From: Baaleninema simplex PCC 7105 | Lineage (GTDB): Bacteria > Cyanobacteriota > Cyanobacteriia > Cyanobacteriales > Geitlerinemataceae | Assembly: GCF_000332355.1 (NCBI RefSeq) | Contig: NZ_KB235958.1 | Span: forward strand, 3,459,922 to 3,523,921 | Direction of reading: 5' to 3' | DNA: 64,000 nt | Shown: positions 36,288 through 45,777 of the stretch, piece by piece | Layout of the letters: every line of letters starts with the position of its first letter | Position numbering within the stretch: position 1 is the first letter of the stretch | The notes under the pieces: generated by a model | The model's database searches: none | What the model was told of the DNA's origin: nothing | What the model saw: the letters and a program-made list of their open reading frames with translations, nothing else | Translations under genes and position numbers: made by a program

Positions 36288-38030
36288 TTAAAACGCATAG
36301 TCGCCGTCGGGGACTTCCACGAGGGAGTCTTCAACCGCCGCAACGTCTGTTGTACTGAGGACGAATCCGACAAAGAATCCGGCTTCGAGTTTAATACCAA
36401 CATCTTCGATCGAGTCGTCGTTGAAGTCACCCACCTCAAACGAAAGGTTCGAGATGCTTTCGAGAGCGATGCGATCGACGCCAGCCTCGAAGTCGGTAAT
36501 CAAGTCGGTACTTAACGCCGCTTCGATGTTGATGTCGGTTTCGATCCGCAACACGAAGGTATCGCTTCCGCCTTCACCGGTGAGGATGTCGAAGCCGAAG
36601 TCGCCAAAAATGGCATCGTCGCCGTCGCCACCCATAACGATGTCGTTTCCTTGACCGCCACGAACGATGTCGTCGCCGTCTTCACCCATAACTACGTCGT
36701 CCTCTTTGCTTCCGTTGAGAACGTCGATACCTTCGCCACCCATCACGCTATCGAAGCCGTCTCCGCCGACGAGAACGTCGTTTCCAGCTTCGCCAGAGAC
36801 TTCGTCGTTTCCGTCACCGCAATCGATGGCGTCGTTGTCGTCGGTTCCCGACACGCTGTCGTCACCCTCGGAACCGATAACGTCGTTTTCGCCAATGTCG
36901 TCGAGATCGACACTTCCTCCCGTCGTAAGTTGGAACGTGGATTCGCTCGAAAAGGCGATCGCCGCCGAGGTGGTGGTACTCCACACGACGTTCAGCGTCG
37001 AGGAACTGCTCAAAATGGCCGATCCGGCGATCGCTCCGTTTCCGGTTCCGTCGCCACCGATAAATACGCCGTTCGCTGCTTGAATCGACACGACGGTTTC
37101 GGTGGACAGTTCGATGAAAAAGCTACTGACGCCGCTTCCGCCGCCACCACCACCGGAATCGCCAGGATCGCTCACGAGGGTCAGTTGTCCGTACAGATCG
37201 GCGATGTCAAATCCTTCTTCGGGAGAGTCGAAGCCGCTCTCGAAGCTGGAACCGCCGTTTTGGGAGAATCCCAGCAATTCTAAGGTAAAGGTTTTTCCGT
37301 CTACCTCGAACGTTTCTGGGGTTAAACCGCTGGTGACGAACCGCAGGCGATCGGCGTCCATCACGGGATCGCCGGTGTCGTTGGGGGTGTTGAGAATATC
37401 GAAGAGAAAGTCGAAATCGACTTTGCTATCTGCACCCTCGACGTCGAGTTTGACGGCGAAACCGAATTCTCCGTCGAAGCCACTGTTTCCGACGATGGTT
37501 CCGTTGCGATAGAAAATCTGTCCGAGTTTGAACGGTTCGTCAATGTCGGCGGCGAAGCGATGGGTTCCGTCGAACTGGAGGACGCTGGTAAAACTTCCCG
37601 AAACGGCGACACCCCAGTCGAAGCGGTTGTCGCTTCCCCCGTTGCGATCGCTAATTTCGATGGTGGAACTGGCGGTTGTATCTACGGGTTCGGTAAAACT
37701 CCCGAAGGATTTACCGACCACTTCTGCGGGACAGTCGCAATCGCTGTCGTCGCCGCTATCGCCGCTGCTGTCGTCGCCGCTATCGTCGCCACTGTCGTCG
37801 CCGCTATCGTCGCCACTGTCGTCGCCGCTATCGCCGCCACTGTCGTCGCTATCGTCGTCATCATCATCATCGTCGTCATCATCATCATCGTCATCGTCAT
37901 CATCGTCATCATCGTCATCGTCATCGTCATCCATATCGTCCATCATGTCGTCGTTACGCAGACGCATACTCTCGAAGGTCGGGAATTCGGAAGTTTCGTC
38001 AAAGACAGAGGACGTGAAATCAGTTTTCAT
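36288..38030 (-). CDS. Poly-aspartate RTX protein with choice-of-anchor K-like domain
   Basis: A 580-residue, extremely acidic protein. After about 33 residues comes an uninterrupted run of 27 aspartates, then tandem SGDD units to about residue 100. Residues about 108-280 resemble the choice-of-anchor K domain of surface proteins (FDWGVAVSGS, GTHRFAADIDEPFKLGQIFYRNG). A Gly-rich linker, a second beta domain and about seven RTX calcium-binding nonapeptides (GGDGFDSVMGGEG and similar, about 395-490) follow. No signal peptide is seen, so type I export is likely. A calcium-binding cell-surface role is inference. Confidence 0.8.
   Translation of the reverse strand: MKTDFTSSVFDETSEFPTFESMRLRNDDMMDDMDDDDDDDDDDDDDDDDDDDDDDDDDDDSDDSGGDSGDDSGDDSGDDSGDDSGDDSSGDSGDDSDCDCPAEVVGKSFGSFTEPVDTTASSTIEISDRNGGSDNRFDWGVAVSGSFTSVLQFDGTHRFAADIDEPFKLGQIFYRNGTIVGNSGFDGEFGFAVKLDVEGADSKVDFDFLFDILNTPNDTGDPVMDADRLRFVTSGLTPETFEVDGKTFTLELLGFSQNGGSSFESGFDSPEEGFDIADLYGQLTLVSDPGDSGGGGGGSGVSSFFIELSTETVVSIQAANGVFIGGDGTGNGAIAGSAILSSSSTLNVVWSTTTSAAIAFSSESTFQLTTGGSVDLDDIGENDVIGSEGDDSVSGTDDNDAIDCGDGNDEVSGEAGNDVLVGGDGFDSVMGGEGIDVLNGSKEDDVVMGEDGDDIVRGGQGNDIVMGGDGDDAIFGDFGFDILTGEGGSDTFVLRIETDINIEAALSTDLITDFEAGVDRIALESISNLSFEVGDFNDDSIEDVGIKLEAGFFVGFVLSTTDVAAVEDSLVEVPDGDYAF
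37851..37931. repeat. Trinucleotide repeat encoding 27 Asp
   Basis: 27 consecutive GAT/GAC codons on the minus strand. The mixed codons give patches of pure (ATC)n, up to four units, that could slip in replication. Confidence 0.95.
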
Positions 38031-38602: not shown

Positions 38603-39220
38603 TCAATCCTCTAAGACTTGACTCCAAATTGCCAAGCCGCCCCCACGTCCTCGTGCGCCGAGGCCGGTGTCGCCAACCCAAAAGTACTTAAAAAATGCCT
38701 GCTGTTTGACTGGCGTGTCGTAAAAACAGCGATCGCGCTCTTTACCGTTGCGGACGTAACCCTCGAACAGCGTCCGTCCGAACACCTGCACGGTCGCCCG
38801 CGTGAAATCGAACGCCAGTAACCGATTGCGCTCGACGAACTTCACCGGCCCCGTCAGCGTAAACCGCAACCCTCCCACTTTGACCGAATTTTCGACTCGT
38901 CCTGCGTCCCATTCTGGGGTAGGTTCTCCGTCGCGGCGATCGCCCTGCGAATAGGTTAGCCGAATCTCGAGCCATCGGGGAAGATAGCGACCCGCCCCTA
39001 ACACTACCCCCGCTCGCTGACGACTTTTCTGGGTTCCCGTGACGAATCCCAACCGCCAAGTTCCCAACAGGCGATCGAACTCTAACAGCTCGCGATCGCG
39101 TTTCGACTGCTTTTCCAAAGCTAACAAGGCTTCGACCACAGCATCCGCTTGAGGGCGTTCGGAGAGTTCCCCTCGAATCGATCGAACGGCCTCTCGAACC
39201 AATTCCACAGTTTCAGACAC
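38603..39220 (-). CDS. PAP/fibrillin-like protein
   Basis: This 205-residue protein resembles the plastid-lipid-associated protein/fibrillin family, lipocalin-like proteins tied to thylakoid lipids and carotenoids. Supporting segments are LLGTWRLGFVTGTQKSR, LRFTLTGPVKFVERNRLLAFDFTRATVQVFG and the Gly-rich C-terminal GARGRGGGLAIW. The first 45 residues form a charged helix. It follows the caspase-fold gene by 24 bp on the same strand. The assignment is by pattern and moderately sure. Confidence 0.6.
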   Translation of the reverse strand: MSETVELVREAVRSIRGELSERPQADAVVEALLALEKQSKRDRELLEFDRLLGTWRLGFVTGTQKSRQRAGVVLGAGRYLPRWLEIRLTYSQGDRRDGEPTPEWDAGRVENSVKVGGLRFTLTGPVKFVERNRLLAFDFTRATVQVFGRTLFEGYVRNGKERDRCFYDTPVKQQAFFKYFWVGDTGLGARGRGGGLAIWSQVLED

Positions 39221-39244: not shown

Positions 39245-41488
39245 TCAAACGACGCGATAAGCAAATTCCAAGGTCGCCCAAACGCGGGTATCGAGGGCGT
39301 AGAAGTCCGTCGAAACGTCTTCGTCCTGGGTGTTACGGAGACTGGCCACGTGCAAGTCTTGCAAGATAGCTTTGGCGATGTCGAGGGGCGTGTCGAGGGT
39401 GCTGAGGTCGCGGGGGTTGCGAGCGGGATGGGTGCGGGCGGCCAGCAGTCCCAACGCCAGAGCAAAGGGGCGATCGCAGCACAGCAGTTGCATTTTCACC
39501 GGTCCGACCGGCCGTCCGACTTCCCAACTGACGTTTTGCGAACCGGGGGGCAAACTCACCGTCTCTCCCGGCATTAGGGGATCTTGCTGAAGTGTTGGCG
39601 GATTGGCGTTGCTGACGGTGTGGAACGGATAAAACGCGACGGTGCGTCCGCTGCTGTCGAGACCGAACAGGAGATAGTACAGGGGGCGATCGCCTAAATT
39701 TTGCAGTTGGTAGCGAATGCGGCTCCCCGCTCGCACTTCAAGAACGTCTTCCGTACTACTTTTCGGCATCGGTTGACTGCTACTGCGGCGTTTCCCTCGC
39801 AACGTTTGTTTAGACACGACGTACTGGGGAGTCGTGGCGTTATCCTCGCCGTCAAAGACGAGAAGACTGCCGCGAACGCCGATTTGCGAAGACCCCGCGT
39901 TGGCGGTCAAGCCCATGAGTTTGGCCGCGAGGAGGGTGCGAAGTTGGGGAACCAAGCGTTGAACGGATTTTTTGATGGCTTCCTCGTTTTCGCCGATGCT
40001 GTTGGGAATGAGTTCGCGGCCGATAGTGAACAAGCCGTAACTGCCGAGATCGCTGGGAAGATCGATGGCTTCGGTCGAGTAAGTTTGAGCGATCGTCGCC
40101 CGACGTATCCGTCCGAACAGACAATCTGCCGGTTGCTCCCCAGCTACGACCGAGGACACCGAGCGAATGCCGGAAAAGGCGCTGGTGGCATCGACGCGCT
40201 CGATGCGTTCGAGTTTGGGGTCGAGGGCGACGGTGAGTCCGAGGCTGCGAGGAACGACGCGCAGGTCTTCGCGTACGAGCTGACCGGGTACGAGGCGGGA
40301 TAGGTCGGACTCGGAGGTTTCGACGAGTTGCGCTTTGGCTATCAGACCGTCGCGCGATCGCACTTTGAGGGTGAGAGGGTCGCGGTTGGCGTCTCCCGGT
40401 GCGGGAATCACCGATAAGAGACTGTTGGGGCTGTAACGTTCGAGAACCTCGCTGGGCAACCCTCCGAGCCACACCGAGGCGCTGGCGTTGTTGCGATCGA
40501 CCGATAACACCGCACCGTCGGCGGTTACGGCAGTGAGTTGGGGAACCAACAGCGAGAGATTGCTGTCGCCGTTTTGGGACGGACAGTCCGCGAGGCGTCC
40601 GATGCAGAGTTGGGGCTGTTGGTCGCGACCGGCCAGGCGATCGACGGTTTGAGCGGCTCGGCGTACCGTCGCCCCGACGGGGAGTTCGGGGGTCGCCCAC
40701 CACAGTTGTTGAGTCAGAGCGTAGGTAAAGGTTCCGGCCGAGAATCCTTGCCAACGGTTTTCGGTGGCGATTTGCTGTTCTGCCGATGCTGTCAGAACTA
40801 GACCGGGAACGCGATCGCTCGTGGGTCGATCTGTGCCGAGGCGATCGCGCAGTTTCGCCAATCGTTCCTGCTGGGTTTGGCTGAAGGACGCGACGGTTGG
40901 AGACGGGCGCGATCGGATGCGTAACGATCCCTGTAACGGCGTTCCAGGGTAGGTATAGCTGGTATCGAGGACGGTGACGACTTTTTTCGTTGCCAGCGAT
41001 CGCAACAGTAACGCCAGGGTCGTCAGGGGCAAGTCTGCCTCGTTCTCGTCTGCTGCGACCAGGCTGTTCTGTACCTGTTCGGAGTCTCGGGATACCTGTA
41101 TCTGAGAGCCGTAGCCGCTGAAGTGAAACAGGACGACGTCCGAGGGTCGAGCGCGATCGATTAAATGCTGTTGAAACGCCTCTTCGATACCTTGAACTGT
41201 GGCGAGATCGTCGGTGAGGGTCGAGATGTCCTCGGGGTTGAAGCCGAAACGGTGAATCAAGACGTTGCGTTGGAGGCTGACGTCTGTTTTACAGCCAAAC
41301 AATCCCTCTTCCGACCCCGTCGCCGATTCTGGATAGCGATCGATACCGACCAAAAGGGCGAGTTTGCGCGGTGCGTTTTGAGCCAGCACTCGGGCCGCGT
41401 CGCGGCTTTGAAGGGACAGCCCCAATTCGATCGCGGCTGTCGCCACGAGCGAGCGAGTGGCGTATTGTAAGAAACCCCGTCGTTTCAT
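39245..41488 (-). CDS. Tat-exported caspase-fold protein (YS pseudo-orthocaspase)
   Basis: This 747-residue protein has a twin-arginine-type signal (KRRGFLQY, then a hydrophobic stretch) and a caspase p20 domain at about 40-290 with KLALLVGIDRYP at its first strand. The catalytic pair is replaced. The usual SGHG histidine is Tyr126 in HFSGYGSQ, and the usual catalytic cysteine of the LDSCHSG motif is Ser177 in VLDTSYTYPG. This is the Tyr/Ser class of cyanobacterial pseudo-orthocaspases. The remaining 450 residues include a DUF4384-like beta domain near the end (RYQLQNLGDRPLYYLLFGLD). It is probably a non-proteolytic binding or regulatory protein in the periplasm. Confidence 0.85.
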   Translation of the reverse strand: MKRRGFLQYATRSLVATAAIELGLSLQSRDAARVLAQNAPRKLALLVGIDRYPESATGSEEGLFGCKTDVSLQRNVLIHRFGFNPEDISTLTDDLATVQGIEEAFQQHLIDRARPSDVVLFHFSGYGSQIQVSRDSEQVQNSLVAADENEADLPLTTLALLLRSLATKKVVTVLDTSYTYPGTPLQGSLRIRSRPSPTVASFSQTQQERLAKLRDRLGTDRPTSDRVPGLVLTASAEQQIATENRWQGFSAGTFTYALTQQLWWATPELPVGATVRRAAQTVDRLAGRDQQPQLCIGRLADCPSQNGDSNLSLLVPQLTAVTADGAVLSVDRNNASASVWLGGLPSEVLERYSPNSLLSVIPAPGDANRDPLTLKVRSRDGLIAKAQLVETSESDLSRLVPGQLVREDLRVVPRSLGLTVALDPKLERIERVDATSAFSGIRSVSSVVAGEQPADCLFGRIRRATIAQTYSTEAIDLPSDLGSYGLFTIGRELIPNSIGENEEAIKKSVQRLVPQLRTLLAAKLMGLTANAGSSQIGVRGSLLVFDGEDNATTPQYVVSKQTLRGKRRSSSQPMPKSSTEDVLEVRAGSRIRYQLQNLGDRPLYYLLFGLDSSGRTVAFYPFHTVSNANPPTLQQDPLMPGETVSLPPGSQNVSWEVGRPVGPVKMQLLCCDRPFALALGLLAARTHPARNPRDLSTLDTPLDIAKAILQDLHVASLRNTQDEDVSTDFYALDTRVWATLEFAYRVV

Positions 41489-41789
41489 GTCGGTTTGCGG
41501 TGGTTAGGGTGGGTTAGGCGGTGTTAGAAGTTTACGGCGGTTCGGTTCCCGACGTTCGAGGCTCGCACGCCCTTTTTCCCTGAGTTCGGCGATCTTTCGA
41601 TTCCGGTCGGGTTTCCGAGGGCGATCGTGTCCCTGCGCCGATAGGCGTCAAAAGTGAGGCGATCGCAAGTCCATCATTAGCTTAATCAGCTTAAAACCAG
41701 TTTTCAACCCGTTTCAGACGAATTCAAAACGGCTCTAAAACGAGTCGTTGTCGAGAAATGCTCCCCGACAACGACAACCGCCCTACGGC
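41489..41789. other. Intergenic region
   Basis: About 300 bp upstream of the caspase-fold gene and past the sat stop codon. No gene, repeat array or clear terminator was found. Confidence 0.4.
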
Positions 41790-42974
41790 TTACTCTTTAC
41801 CTTTGTGCATGGCGTTGGCGAGTTCCGTCGCCACTTCCGGACGGGAGAATTCCGGCGGCGGTAACTGACCGCGTCGCAGCATTTCCCGCACTTTCGTACC
41901 GGACAAATGAATGCGCTCTTCCGGGGTACTCGGACTCGTCTTCGAGGTGGCCATCGACTGGGTGCGCGTGCAGTAGAAGGCGTGTTCGAACTTCATCGGA
42001 ACGATACCCAGTTCCCCAGGCTCGAACTCGTCGAAAATATGTTGGGCGTCGTAGGTTCCATAGTAGTCACCGACTCCCGCGTGATCGCGTCCCACAATAA
42101 AATGAGTACAGCCGTAGTTCTTGCGAACCAATGCGTGGAAAATGGCTTCGCGGGGGCCGGCGTAGCGCATCGCCGCCGGGTTGATGGCCATCATCACGCG
42201 ATCGCGCGGAAAGTAGCGATCGAGCATAATTTCATAACACCGCATCCGCACGTCAGCGGGGATGTCGTCGCTTTTCGTCGCTCCCACCAGCGGGTGGAGG
42301 AACAAACCATCAACGGTTTCGAGAGCGCACTTCTGAATGTACTCGTGGGCCCGGTGAATCGGGTTTCGGGTTTGGAACCCGACCACGGTTTTCCATCCTT
42401 TCTCAGCGAACAACTCCCGACTTTCAGCGGGGTCGATTTGATAGCGGGGGAACGAGGGATGGGGGTCGCGTTGCAGCAGCCACACCGGCCCGGCCAAGTT
42501 GACGTCCCCTTGTTGGTAAACCACCGCCACGCCGGGGTGTTTTTCCTCGTTCGTCCGATAGACGTGAAGGGCTTCTTTGAGTTTGTCGTATTGATATTTC
42601 TGGGTCAGTTCCAGAACGCCGACAAACCGTCCGGTCGAGTCGTCCAAGCGTACCAAACTCCCGATTTCCAGGGAATCGGCCACGTCTTCGGTGACGTTGA
42701 GGGTAATGGGAATCGACCACGGGAGTCCATCGGACAACCGCATATCCGTGACGACGCTTTTATAGTCGGCCTCTTCCATAAAGCCAGTCAGAGGGCTGAA
42801 GCCACCGATGGCGATAAGGACGAGGTCGGAAAACGTGCGATCGTCCATCTCGACGCGGGGAAGACTATCCGCCTTATCGAGAAAAGTTTGCTTTTGTTCC
42901 TCGGTGGCAATCCGGTTAATTAACGTGCCACCGTGAGCGGGGATGGTTTCTTGATACTGTTTTGCTGCACTCAC
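41790..42974 (-). CDS. sat: Sulfate adenylyltransferase
   Basis: ATP sulfurylase makes APS from sulfate and ATP, the entry step of assimilation. The 394-residue single-domain protein has an N-terminal PUA-like part and the catalytic motifs [16 protein letters not shown] (near 195) and [13 protein letters not shown], with [13 protein letters not shown] after. It lacks the APS-kinase-like extension of fungal enzymes, as expected. It has no sulfur genes beside it. Confidence 0.95.
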
Positions 42975-43318: not shown

Positions 43319-44005
43319 TCATTCGTTCGAGGATTTCCTGTGTCCGCGGCCGGAGATGTTTTCGATCGCGGCGACGACAGCTTGAGAGGCGGCGATGATG
43401 TCCCGCTCCTCTCCACCGAGATAAAGACGACCGAAGCTTCCCACGGCTTGTACTTGTAAAATATTGATCTGGGCTGATTTTTCAGCTTCGTTCGCCGCTA
43501 AAGCAGCATAAGCGGCCGGGGCGACTTCCATCACGTACAAACTTTGTCCGGCCAGCAACATCTGTCCGCGACGGGTGCGGTTGATCAGTTGTGTTTGGTG
43601 GGGGTCGAGGTTGCGGATAATCTGACTCGACATGATGCGCGGTTTGAGGCGTTCGCTTTCCTTGACTCCCAAAGCGTCGAGAATGGCGATTCCGGCGGTT
43701 CGCGTGTCGCTTTGACGGCTAGAGTGAACTTCGAGCAACCCATAAAGCCGTTCCACCACCTGCACCCCAGGACGAACAGACGTGGACTTGAGGGCGACGT
43801 CGGTAATGCGGTTGATTTCAATTCCCGGCGAGATTTCTACCCAAAGCGACGTATCGCCAGGAAGGGGGAGAAATCCGAGGGCGACGGTTCCCATGTAAGC
43901 AGCGTGTTGAGGTTGCAGACTGTCAATATAGACAAAGCTGCGTAGTTCGACTCCCAAAGTTCGATTCTCCGCGAAAGACCGATTGGCAATTGTAGAGTAC
44001 GACAT
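43319..44005 (-). CDS. ccmP: Carboxysome shell protein CcmP (tandem BMC domains)
   Basis: CcmP is a minor pseudohexameric trimer of the beta-carboxysome shell with a large gated pore. The 228-residue protein begins its domain at [23 protein letters not shown] and has two BMC-type halves, the second ending [15 protein letters not shown] and [19 protein letters not shown]. The known protein is about 213 residues, so the true start may be the TTG of LGVELRS, 16 codons in; the ATG at 44005 is used here. It stands alone, as ccmP usually does, away from the main ccm operon. Confidence 0.85.
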
Positions 44006-44083
44006 CACCCGTGTCAGGCGAAGTCAGCCTGCGACATTCCACCGCACGACATTCGACTAATACCACGAAACGGAGAGGGAACA

Positions 44084-44228
44084 GGGAATAGGGAACGGGG
44101 AACAGGAAACGGGGAACAGGAAACGGGGAACAGGGAACAGTTTCTCCCCCTCTCCCTTGCTCCCCCTCTCTCTTGCTCCCCCTCTCTCTTGCTCCCCCTC
44201 TCTCTTGCTCCCCTTCTCCCTTACTCCC
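44084..44228. repeat. Two adjoining tandem arrays
   Basis: GGGAACAGGAAAC-type units (about 44084-44142) are followed by CTCCCCCTCTCTCTTG-type units to 44228, ending at the next start codon. Confidence 0.85.
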
Positions 44229-44229
44229 T

Positions 44230-45777
44230 ATGACGATCGATCGACTTGTAATTTGGATGGTACTGCTTTCGGGAGTGGTGTTTTTGGTGCGATCGCTCTC
44301 CGCCAAACCGCCACAATGGGGATGGTCGATCGTGTCGGGGGCGATTCTGGCGATTACGGGGACGCTCTTAGCGATCGCGTCTGTGGAATTGGCGGCGTGG
44401 ATTGGCGGGATGTTGTGGGGGATATTCCTGTTGTTTCCGGTGTTGGGGTTGCGCCGGGTCAACGATTTGTTTCGCGAGGAACGGTATCAGGCGGCGAGTC
44501 GGTTGGCGGTGGCGATCGCGATTTTACACCCCGCCGATGGCTGGCCCGATCGCGTGGGGGTATTGCAGGCGTTGGCGGTGGCGAAAGGGGGCGATATTGA
44601 AAAGGGGCGATCGCTCTTGCAAATTTATCAAACTCCGAAAACGGTTCTCGGACGCAGTGCGATCGTTTTAGAGTATTGGATGCGGGGGGCGTGGGACGAG
44701 TTACTGAATTGGTTGCGATCGCGCCCGGAACGAGAGCAGGATGCCAATTTAATGCTGTATTATCTGCGCTGTTTGGGGGAAACGGGGCAGGTCAACGAGA
44801 TGTTACGGATGTTTCCTTCGGTAGACGAGCATTTACGGCGAATTGGGGATCTCGATCGCCTCAGTCAAGCGAGATTGTTCGTTTTAGCCTTTTGCGGCGA
44901 AACCCAACAAGTCTATCGACTGTTCGAGGGGGAACTCTCCAAGTACTCCGTCTCGAACCAACAGTTTTGGCTCGCTACCTCACAGATGGCGATGGGGAGA
45001 ACGCGACAAGCGCAGCAGATGTTGGGGGCGTTACAGAAAGATTGCGATCCTGTGTTGCGGAGGGCGATCGCTTGGCGACTCAACCAAACCCAACTCGACT
45101 TTAAAACCCACTTTAGCGACTATTCAGCGCGAGTGCTATCGGCGTTGAAGCTGCAACTGTCCCAAGAAGCGCGATACAGTGGGCGCGTAGCGGGAAAACG
45201 GGCGATCGCCACCTGGGGACTCATCGGCTTAAACGCAACGGTGTTTCTGTTGGAATTGCGCCTCGGCGGAAGCGAAAACCTCTGGGTACTGTACCGACTG
45301 GGGGCGTTGGTTCCCGAGGAAGTGTGGGCGGGGGAATGGTGGCGCGTTGTCACCGCCACGTTTCTGCACTTCGGGATCTCTCACCTGGCGATGAATATGT
45401 TCGGGTTGTATATCTTGGGACAGTTCGTCGAATCGCGCATCGGAATGCAGCGGTTTCTGGTGACGTATTTCGCCAGCGGCGTCGGTTCGATGGCGTTTAT
45501 TTCCCTGTTGGCGTTGCGCGGCGGCGAGACTCAGTTTGTCGTGGGTGCGTCGGGGGCGGTGATGGGGTTAATTGGCGCAGTGGCGGCGATTTTTTGGCAA
45601 GGTTGGCGTCAGGAAAAAGCACAAATTGCAAAGGATCGGTTGCGATCGATCCTCTTCGTGATTGCGATTCAAGCGGCTTTCGATTTATCGATTCCGGAAA
45701 TCTGTTTTCTCTGTCATGCGTCCGGTGCAGTTTTAGGATTTATTACCGCCAATTTGTTGCTTTGGCGCAAATCTTAA
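44230..45777 (+). CDS. Rhomboid-family intramembrane serine protease with helical N-terminal domain
   Basis: This 515-residue protein begins with two membrane helices (about 5-65), then a soluble helical repeat region (about 70-310) with TPR-like spacing, then a six-helix rhomboid domain. The catalytic serine is in VVGASGAVMGLIG near 440 and the catalytic histidine in LCHASGAVLGF near 498; the WR and HxxxN motifs (EWWRVVTATFLHFG, HLAMNMFGL) are present. The substrate is unknown. ATG 44230 is preferred, since upstream in-frame starts fall in the tandem array. Confidence 0.88.
   Translation: MTIDRLVIWMVLLSGVVFLVRSLSAKPPQWGWSIVSGAILAITGTLLAIASVELAAWIGGMLWGIFLLFPVLGLRRVNDLFREERYQAASRLAVAIAILHPADGWPDRVGVLQALAVAKGGDIEKGRSLLQIYQTPKTVLGRSAIVLEYWMRGAWDELLNWLRSRPEREQDANLMLYYLRCLGETGQVNEMLRMFPSVDEHLRRIGDLDRLSQARLFVLAFCGETQQVYRLFEGELSKYSVSNQQFWLATSQMAMGRTRQAQQMLGALQKDCDPVLRRAIAWRLNQTQLDFKTHFSDYSARVLSALKLQLSQEARYSGRVAGKRAIATWGLIGLNATVFLLELRLGGSENLWVLYRLGALVPEEVWAGEWWRVVTATFLHFGISHLAMNMFGLYILGQFVESRIGMQRFLVTYFASGVGSMAFISLLALRGGETQFVVGASGAVMGLIGAVAAIFWQGWRQEKAQIAKDRLRSILFVIAIQAAFDLSIPEICFLCHASGAVLGFITANLLLWRKS

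Follow-up and report, generated by a model that had tools for sequence, protein, structure and literature searches.

The gene on the minus strand at positions 39245-41488 of the window (the whole 64,000-nucleotide stretch of DNA analysed here) encodes a pseudo-orthocaspase of the Tyr/Ser (YS) kind, and its conserved genomic partner is sat, the ATP sulfurylase gene upstream of it, rather than the fibrillin-like gene that follows it. The best explanation of these observations, and the one we lean towards on the basis of sequence comparison, is that the protein would be exported and would bind without cutting, with a possible tie to sulfur assimilation. Most of the taxonomic class to which the window belongs keeps pseudo-orthocaspases, without an accepted function; a partner gene conserved in several families, a clade motif and a set of active sisters together replace a vague photosynthetic role with a directly testable question.

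The open reading frame is intact, starts with ATG and specifies 747 residues. The caspase (p20-like) domain at residues 41-296 (40601..41368, minus strand) is recognized by Pfam (PF00656, E 1.3e-17), by profile comparison and by structure: the AlphaFold model of the full protein has a mean pLDDT of 81, and its top Foldseek matches in the PDB are to Arabidopsis metacaspase 9 (E 2e-13). This plant type II metacaspase (AtMCA-IIf; PDB 9n3d and 8a53), which carries the motif FHYSGHG, is the nearest solved structure both by profile and by fold, but it is an active His-Cys protease and lacks the DUF4384 region. The first-pass annotation had proposed a kept caspase fold together with a C-terminal region of some 450 residues, and both proposals are borne out, the latter region spanning residues 297-747 (451 aa). 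It did not mention a DUF4384 domain at residues 585-672 (39473..39736, minus strand; PF14326, E 2.3e-7), which is also matched in 24 of 32 relatives. Searched alone with Foldseek, the C-terminal region matched small beta-barrels of F1-ATPases, only locally, and TolB, weakly; with TM-scores of about 0.15 these were set aside as a fold assignment.

The features of the protein are those described for the YS pseudo-orthocaspases (Klemencic et al., 2019; PMC6426788): Tyr and Ser in the catalytic positions, a leader with RR and A-x-A, an acidic pocket formed by two Asp, and a long C-terminal region, in which that study names no domain and we find DUF4384. The YS class is described as being without the metacaspase p10 domain; here the PF00656 match extends to residue 296. 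The gene is virtually certain to belong to this class, of which it is an ordinary, already known kind of member, so that the original placement in a described class of open function stands. The leader, also correctly read as a Tat signal, covers residues 1-36 (MKRRGFL...VLA; 41381..41488, minus strand). All family members whose sequence reaches the N-terminus have RR, and 121/123 members show at residues 34-36 a signal-peptidase-like A/V/T-x-A/S/G site, in the form V-L-A in this one. Judged by this conservation, export is quite probable: the folded protein would travel through the Tat pathway to the periplasm or the thylakoid lumen, and the leader would be removed after about Ala36.

When the protein is aligned with five His-Cys paralogues that the source genome encodes, Tyr126 (codon 41111..41113, minus strand) and Ser177 (40958..40960, minus strand) fall in the positions of the catalytic His and Cys, as had been proposed, and 16 His-Cys homologues from other genomes, which are closer to it, give the same placement. 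In the 106 orthologues with sequence at these sites, position 126 is occupied by Y in 79, C in 13, F in 10, L in three and K in one, while residue 177 is S in 103, G in two and C in one. His at position 126 was found neither in these orthologues nor in any member of the pseudo clade. Since residue 126 drifts in this way, the family conserves the absence of the catalytic His and not a strict Tyr-Ser pair. Five residues, Asp69, His122, Ser124, Gly127 and Asp175, never vary among the 106 orthologues, and the two Asp provide the acidic pocket typical of the class.

The near invariance of Ser177 and the full invariance of His122 (codon 41123..41125, minus strand) could be taken as signs of a new chemistry, with a Tyr-Ser hydrolase or a dyad of His122 with Cys66 in place of the old one. 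We consider this very unlikely. Residue 126 changes to C, F, L or K and Ser177 can be Gly; Cys66 is replaced by Ala in eight orthologues; and His122 has an equivalent in plant metacaspase 9 as well as in the active His-Cys sisters, which carry it in addition to the catalytic His at 126, so that it is an inherited residue and not a substitute. The search for another His/Cys pair in the active site, which would have undermined the first-pass annotation, thus returned none, His122 and Cys66 being rejected as a new dyad. That the protein is non-proteolytic is very probable from these alignments.

In a phylum sample of 146 genomes, homologues at E<=1e-40 occur in 53, which argues against the observation being a matter of chance. 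All 53 belong to the window's own class, and none to the other classes of the phylum. Beside the pseudo-orthocaspases, the same genomes hold a sister clade of 16 proteins (L211-L226) with the full His-Cys dyad (FHFSGHG and DSCHSGG), which share the Tat leader and a C-terminal region that can be aligned. The leader was presented in PMC6426788 as the most striking difference from the active forms; given that the His-Cys sister clade has it too, it is not exclusive to pseudo-orthocaspases. What does separate the two groups, when they are compared, is the motif RIERVDATSAF at residues 428-438 (40175..40207, minus strand), specific to the pseudo clade: exact VDATS is found in 116/123 of its members versus 0/16 His-Cys proteins. 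In the caspase-domain tree a single change suffices for the pseudo clade (82% of bootstrap trees; support 79/92), and the clade fits a single origin; the support for this is moderate, and some rows have long branches. The 16 sisters form a natural active comparison set for the YS clade.

The functional hint offered initially was the pairing with a fibrillin-like gene 24 bp downstream. The distance is correct: the neighbour (38603..39220, minus strand) begins with GTG 24 bp 3' of the pseudo-caspase, on the same strand and with an AGGAG resembling a ribosome-binding site within the gap, an arrangement that would suit two genes working as a unit. The label is weak, and the gene is a remote PAP_fibrillin relative at best. 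Its PAP_fibrillin score is 12.7 bits, below the Pfam cut-off of 22, which one relative (G019) just reaches with 22.1, and similarity over the whole domain was not found, hhalign giving a probability of 24% over 52 columns. The clear fibrillin of the source genome lies elsewhere (G000:C3:57839). Adjacency is confined to the source genome among the 53 sampled genomes, and the same holds among the 14 genomes of its family; G146, the closest relative, has no copy of the downstream gene at all, and no homologue of it stands beside the pseudo-caspase in the 80 named loci. The nearest approach is genome G143, where the homologue lies 1.7 kb from the pseudo-caspase with one gene between, and in other genomes homologues are on other contigs or far away. 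Nor do these homologues have conserved neighbours of their own, the best being shared by 6/38 loci. The fibrillin pairing is accordingly ruled out as a hint by its lack of conservation, an outcome that the first-pass annotation had itself named as refuting, and a functional unit of the two genes is extremely unlikely. The G143 locus (L084, 3893-9827) is a same-strand row of sat, the pseudo-caspase, a 546-aa gene and the downstream-gene homologue.

The conserved partner escaped the first-pass annotation. It is sat (41790..42974, minus strand; PF01747, E 2.7e-98), the gene for ATP sulfurylase, the first enzyme of sulfate use. It lies upstream and on the same strand as the pseudo-caspase in 36/53 sampled genomes, representing 11/19 families, and beside 0/17 secondary caspase paralogues. 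In the remaining 17 of the 53 genomes the two genes are either apart or interrupted by the end of a contig, the pseudo-caspase gene being near such an end in some of them. Among the named loci whose upstream flank extends over 1.5 kb or more, sat is adjacent in 62/70, with a median gap of 196 bp; this rate is biased to near relatives because the named set (80 loci, L131-L210) holds the closest matches only, and the phylum sample is the fairer measure. Against its surroundings the pair is conspicuous, as mnmA, further upstream, is found in 28/80 named loci and the best downstream gene in 14/80. Two sulfur-related genes recur near the pair in L131-L210, mnmA in 28 loci and MTA phosphorylase in 14; both names were given from the sequences.

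The two genes may not share a transcript in the window, given a terminator-like 14-bp hairpin after sat (41744..41775, minus strand). It is not conserved in relatives: stems of nine or more occur in 12/64 gaps between sat and the gene (2.2 expected), and no common hairpin was found in these gaps, so a conserved terminator or structured element was rejected.

The sat neighbour itself is already published for one species. In Nodularia spumigena, the metacaspase M32 (NSP_23610) has sulfate adenylyltransferase and MTA phosphorylase as neighbours, and a link between metacaspases and sulfur metabolism was proposed (PMC4933709). That was a single-genome observation, likened to ours by the neighbour alone, whereas our counts place the sat neighbour in several families. 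It goes unmentioned in the remaining orthocaspase papers that we searched, and its phylum-wide conservation looks unreported in the open-access literature that we searched, a body that leaves out most subscription journals.

Sat is cytosolic, and the pseudo-caspase is predicted to be exported; any link between them would thus run through expression or physiology, a regulatory tie and not contact. The supply of the pseudo-caspase may be coupled to sulfate assimilation or to sulfur or redox status, as the sat linkage suggests, and we put forward this functional tie to sulfur assimilation tentatively. In the published alternative, the protein serves photosynthesis or the upkeep of the thylakoid membrane in the lumen, and adjacency to sat is old synteny only. 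The Tat leader and the restriction of matches to the window's own class would agree with it, and PMC6426788 argues for it from distribution and light regulation. However, old synteny does not readily explain a pair that persists while the surrounding gene order has decayed, and the fibrillin-like neighbour that would have supported a thylakoid role is not conserved. We regard this alternative as possible, though rather doubtful.

A further candidate is the pro-death or oxidative-stress pathway proposed for SyOC of Synechocystis sp. PCC 6803, a pseudo-orthocaspase likewise without the His-Cys dyad, whose deletion raised peroxide tolerance (PMC7889975). Sulfur metabolism and redox defence overlap, which would accommodate sat. 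The site of SyOC is Tyr-Gly, though, and the sat-adjacent Nodularia gene has a steady, house-keeping-like expression (PMC4933709); we find such a role unlikely here. The oxidative-stress phenotype of SyOC (PMC7889975) and light regulation (PMC6426788) do count against a tie to sulfur, neither being sulfur-specific.

A non-cutting exported binding protein, by comparison, would be consistent with the loss of the dyad, the dyad-keeping sisters, the single-origin tree, VDATS, the conservation of the Tat leader and the linkage to sat, all read from sequence. In such a protein, a binding or scaffold descendant of an exported active orthocaspase, the predicted pocket may still hold Lys- or Arg-bearing peptides, or a partner, without cleaving them, and the C-terminal region, through the RIERVDATSAF surface and DUF4384, may dock a second partner. 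It is conceivable, if speculative, that the recruitment of an exported active orthocaspase happened once, early in the class, with the gain of RIERVDATSAF as a binding surface, and made of it a dedicated non-cutting part of sulfate assimilation or of the response to sulfur status.

Other genes of the window deserve mention. On the minus strand, 36288-38030 encodes a 580-aa protein in which some 30 Asp residues in a row and GDDS repeats precede RTX calcium-binding repeats, and the DNA at this place forms a tandem-repeat array. Just upstream of sat, 43319-44008 (minus strand) encodes a 229-aa protein with a sub-threshold match to BMC, the microcompartment shell domain (E 6e-4), and at 44173-45777 (plus strand) there is a 534-aa protein that carries a rhomboid protease domain (E 1.3e-27) in its C-terminal part.
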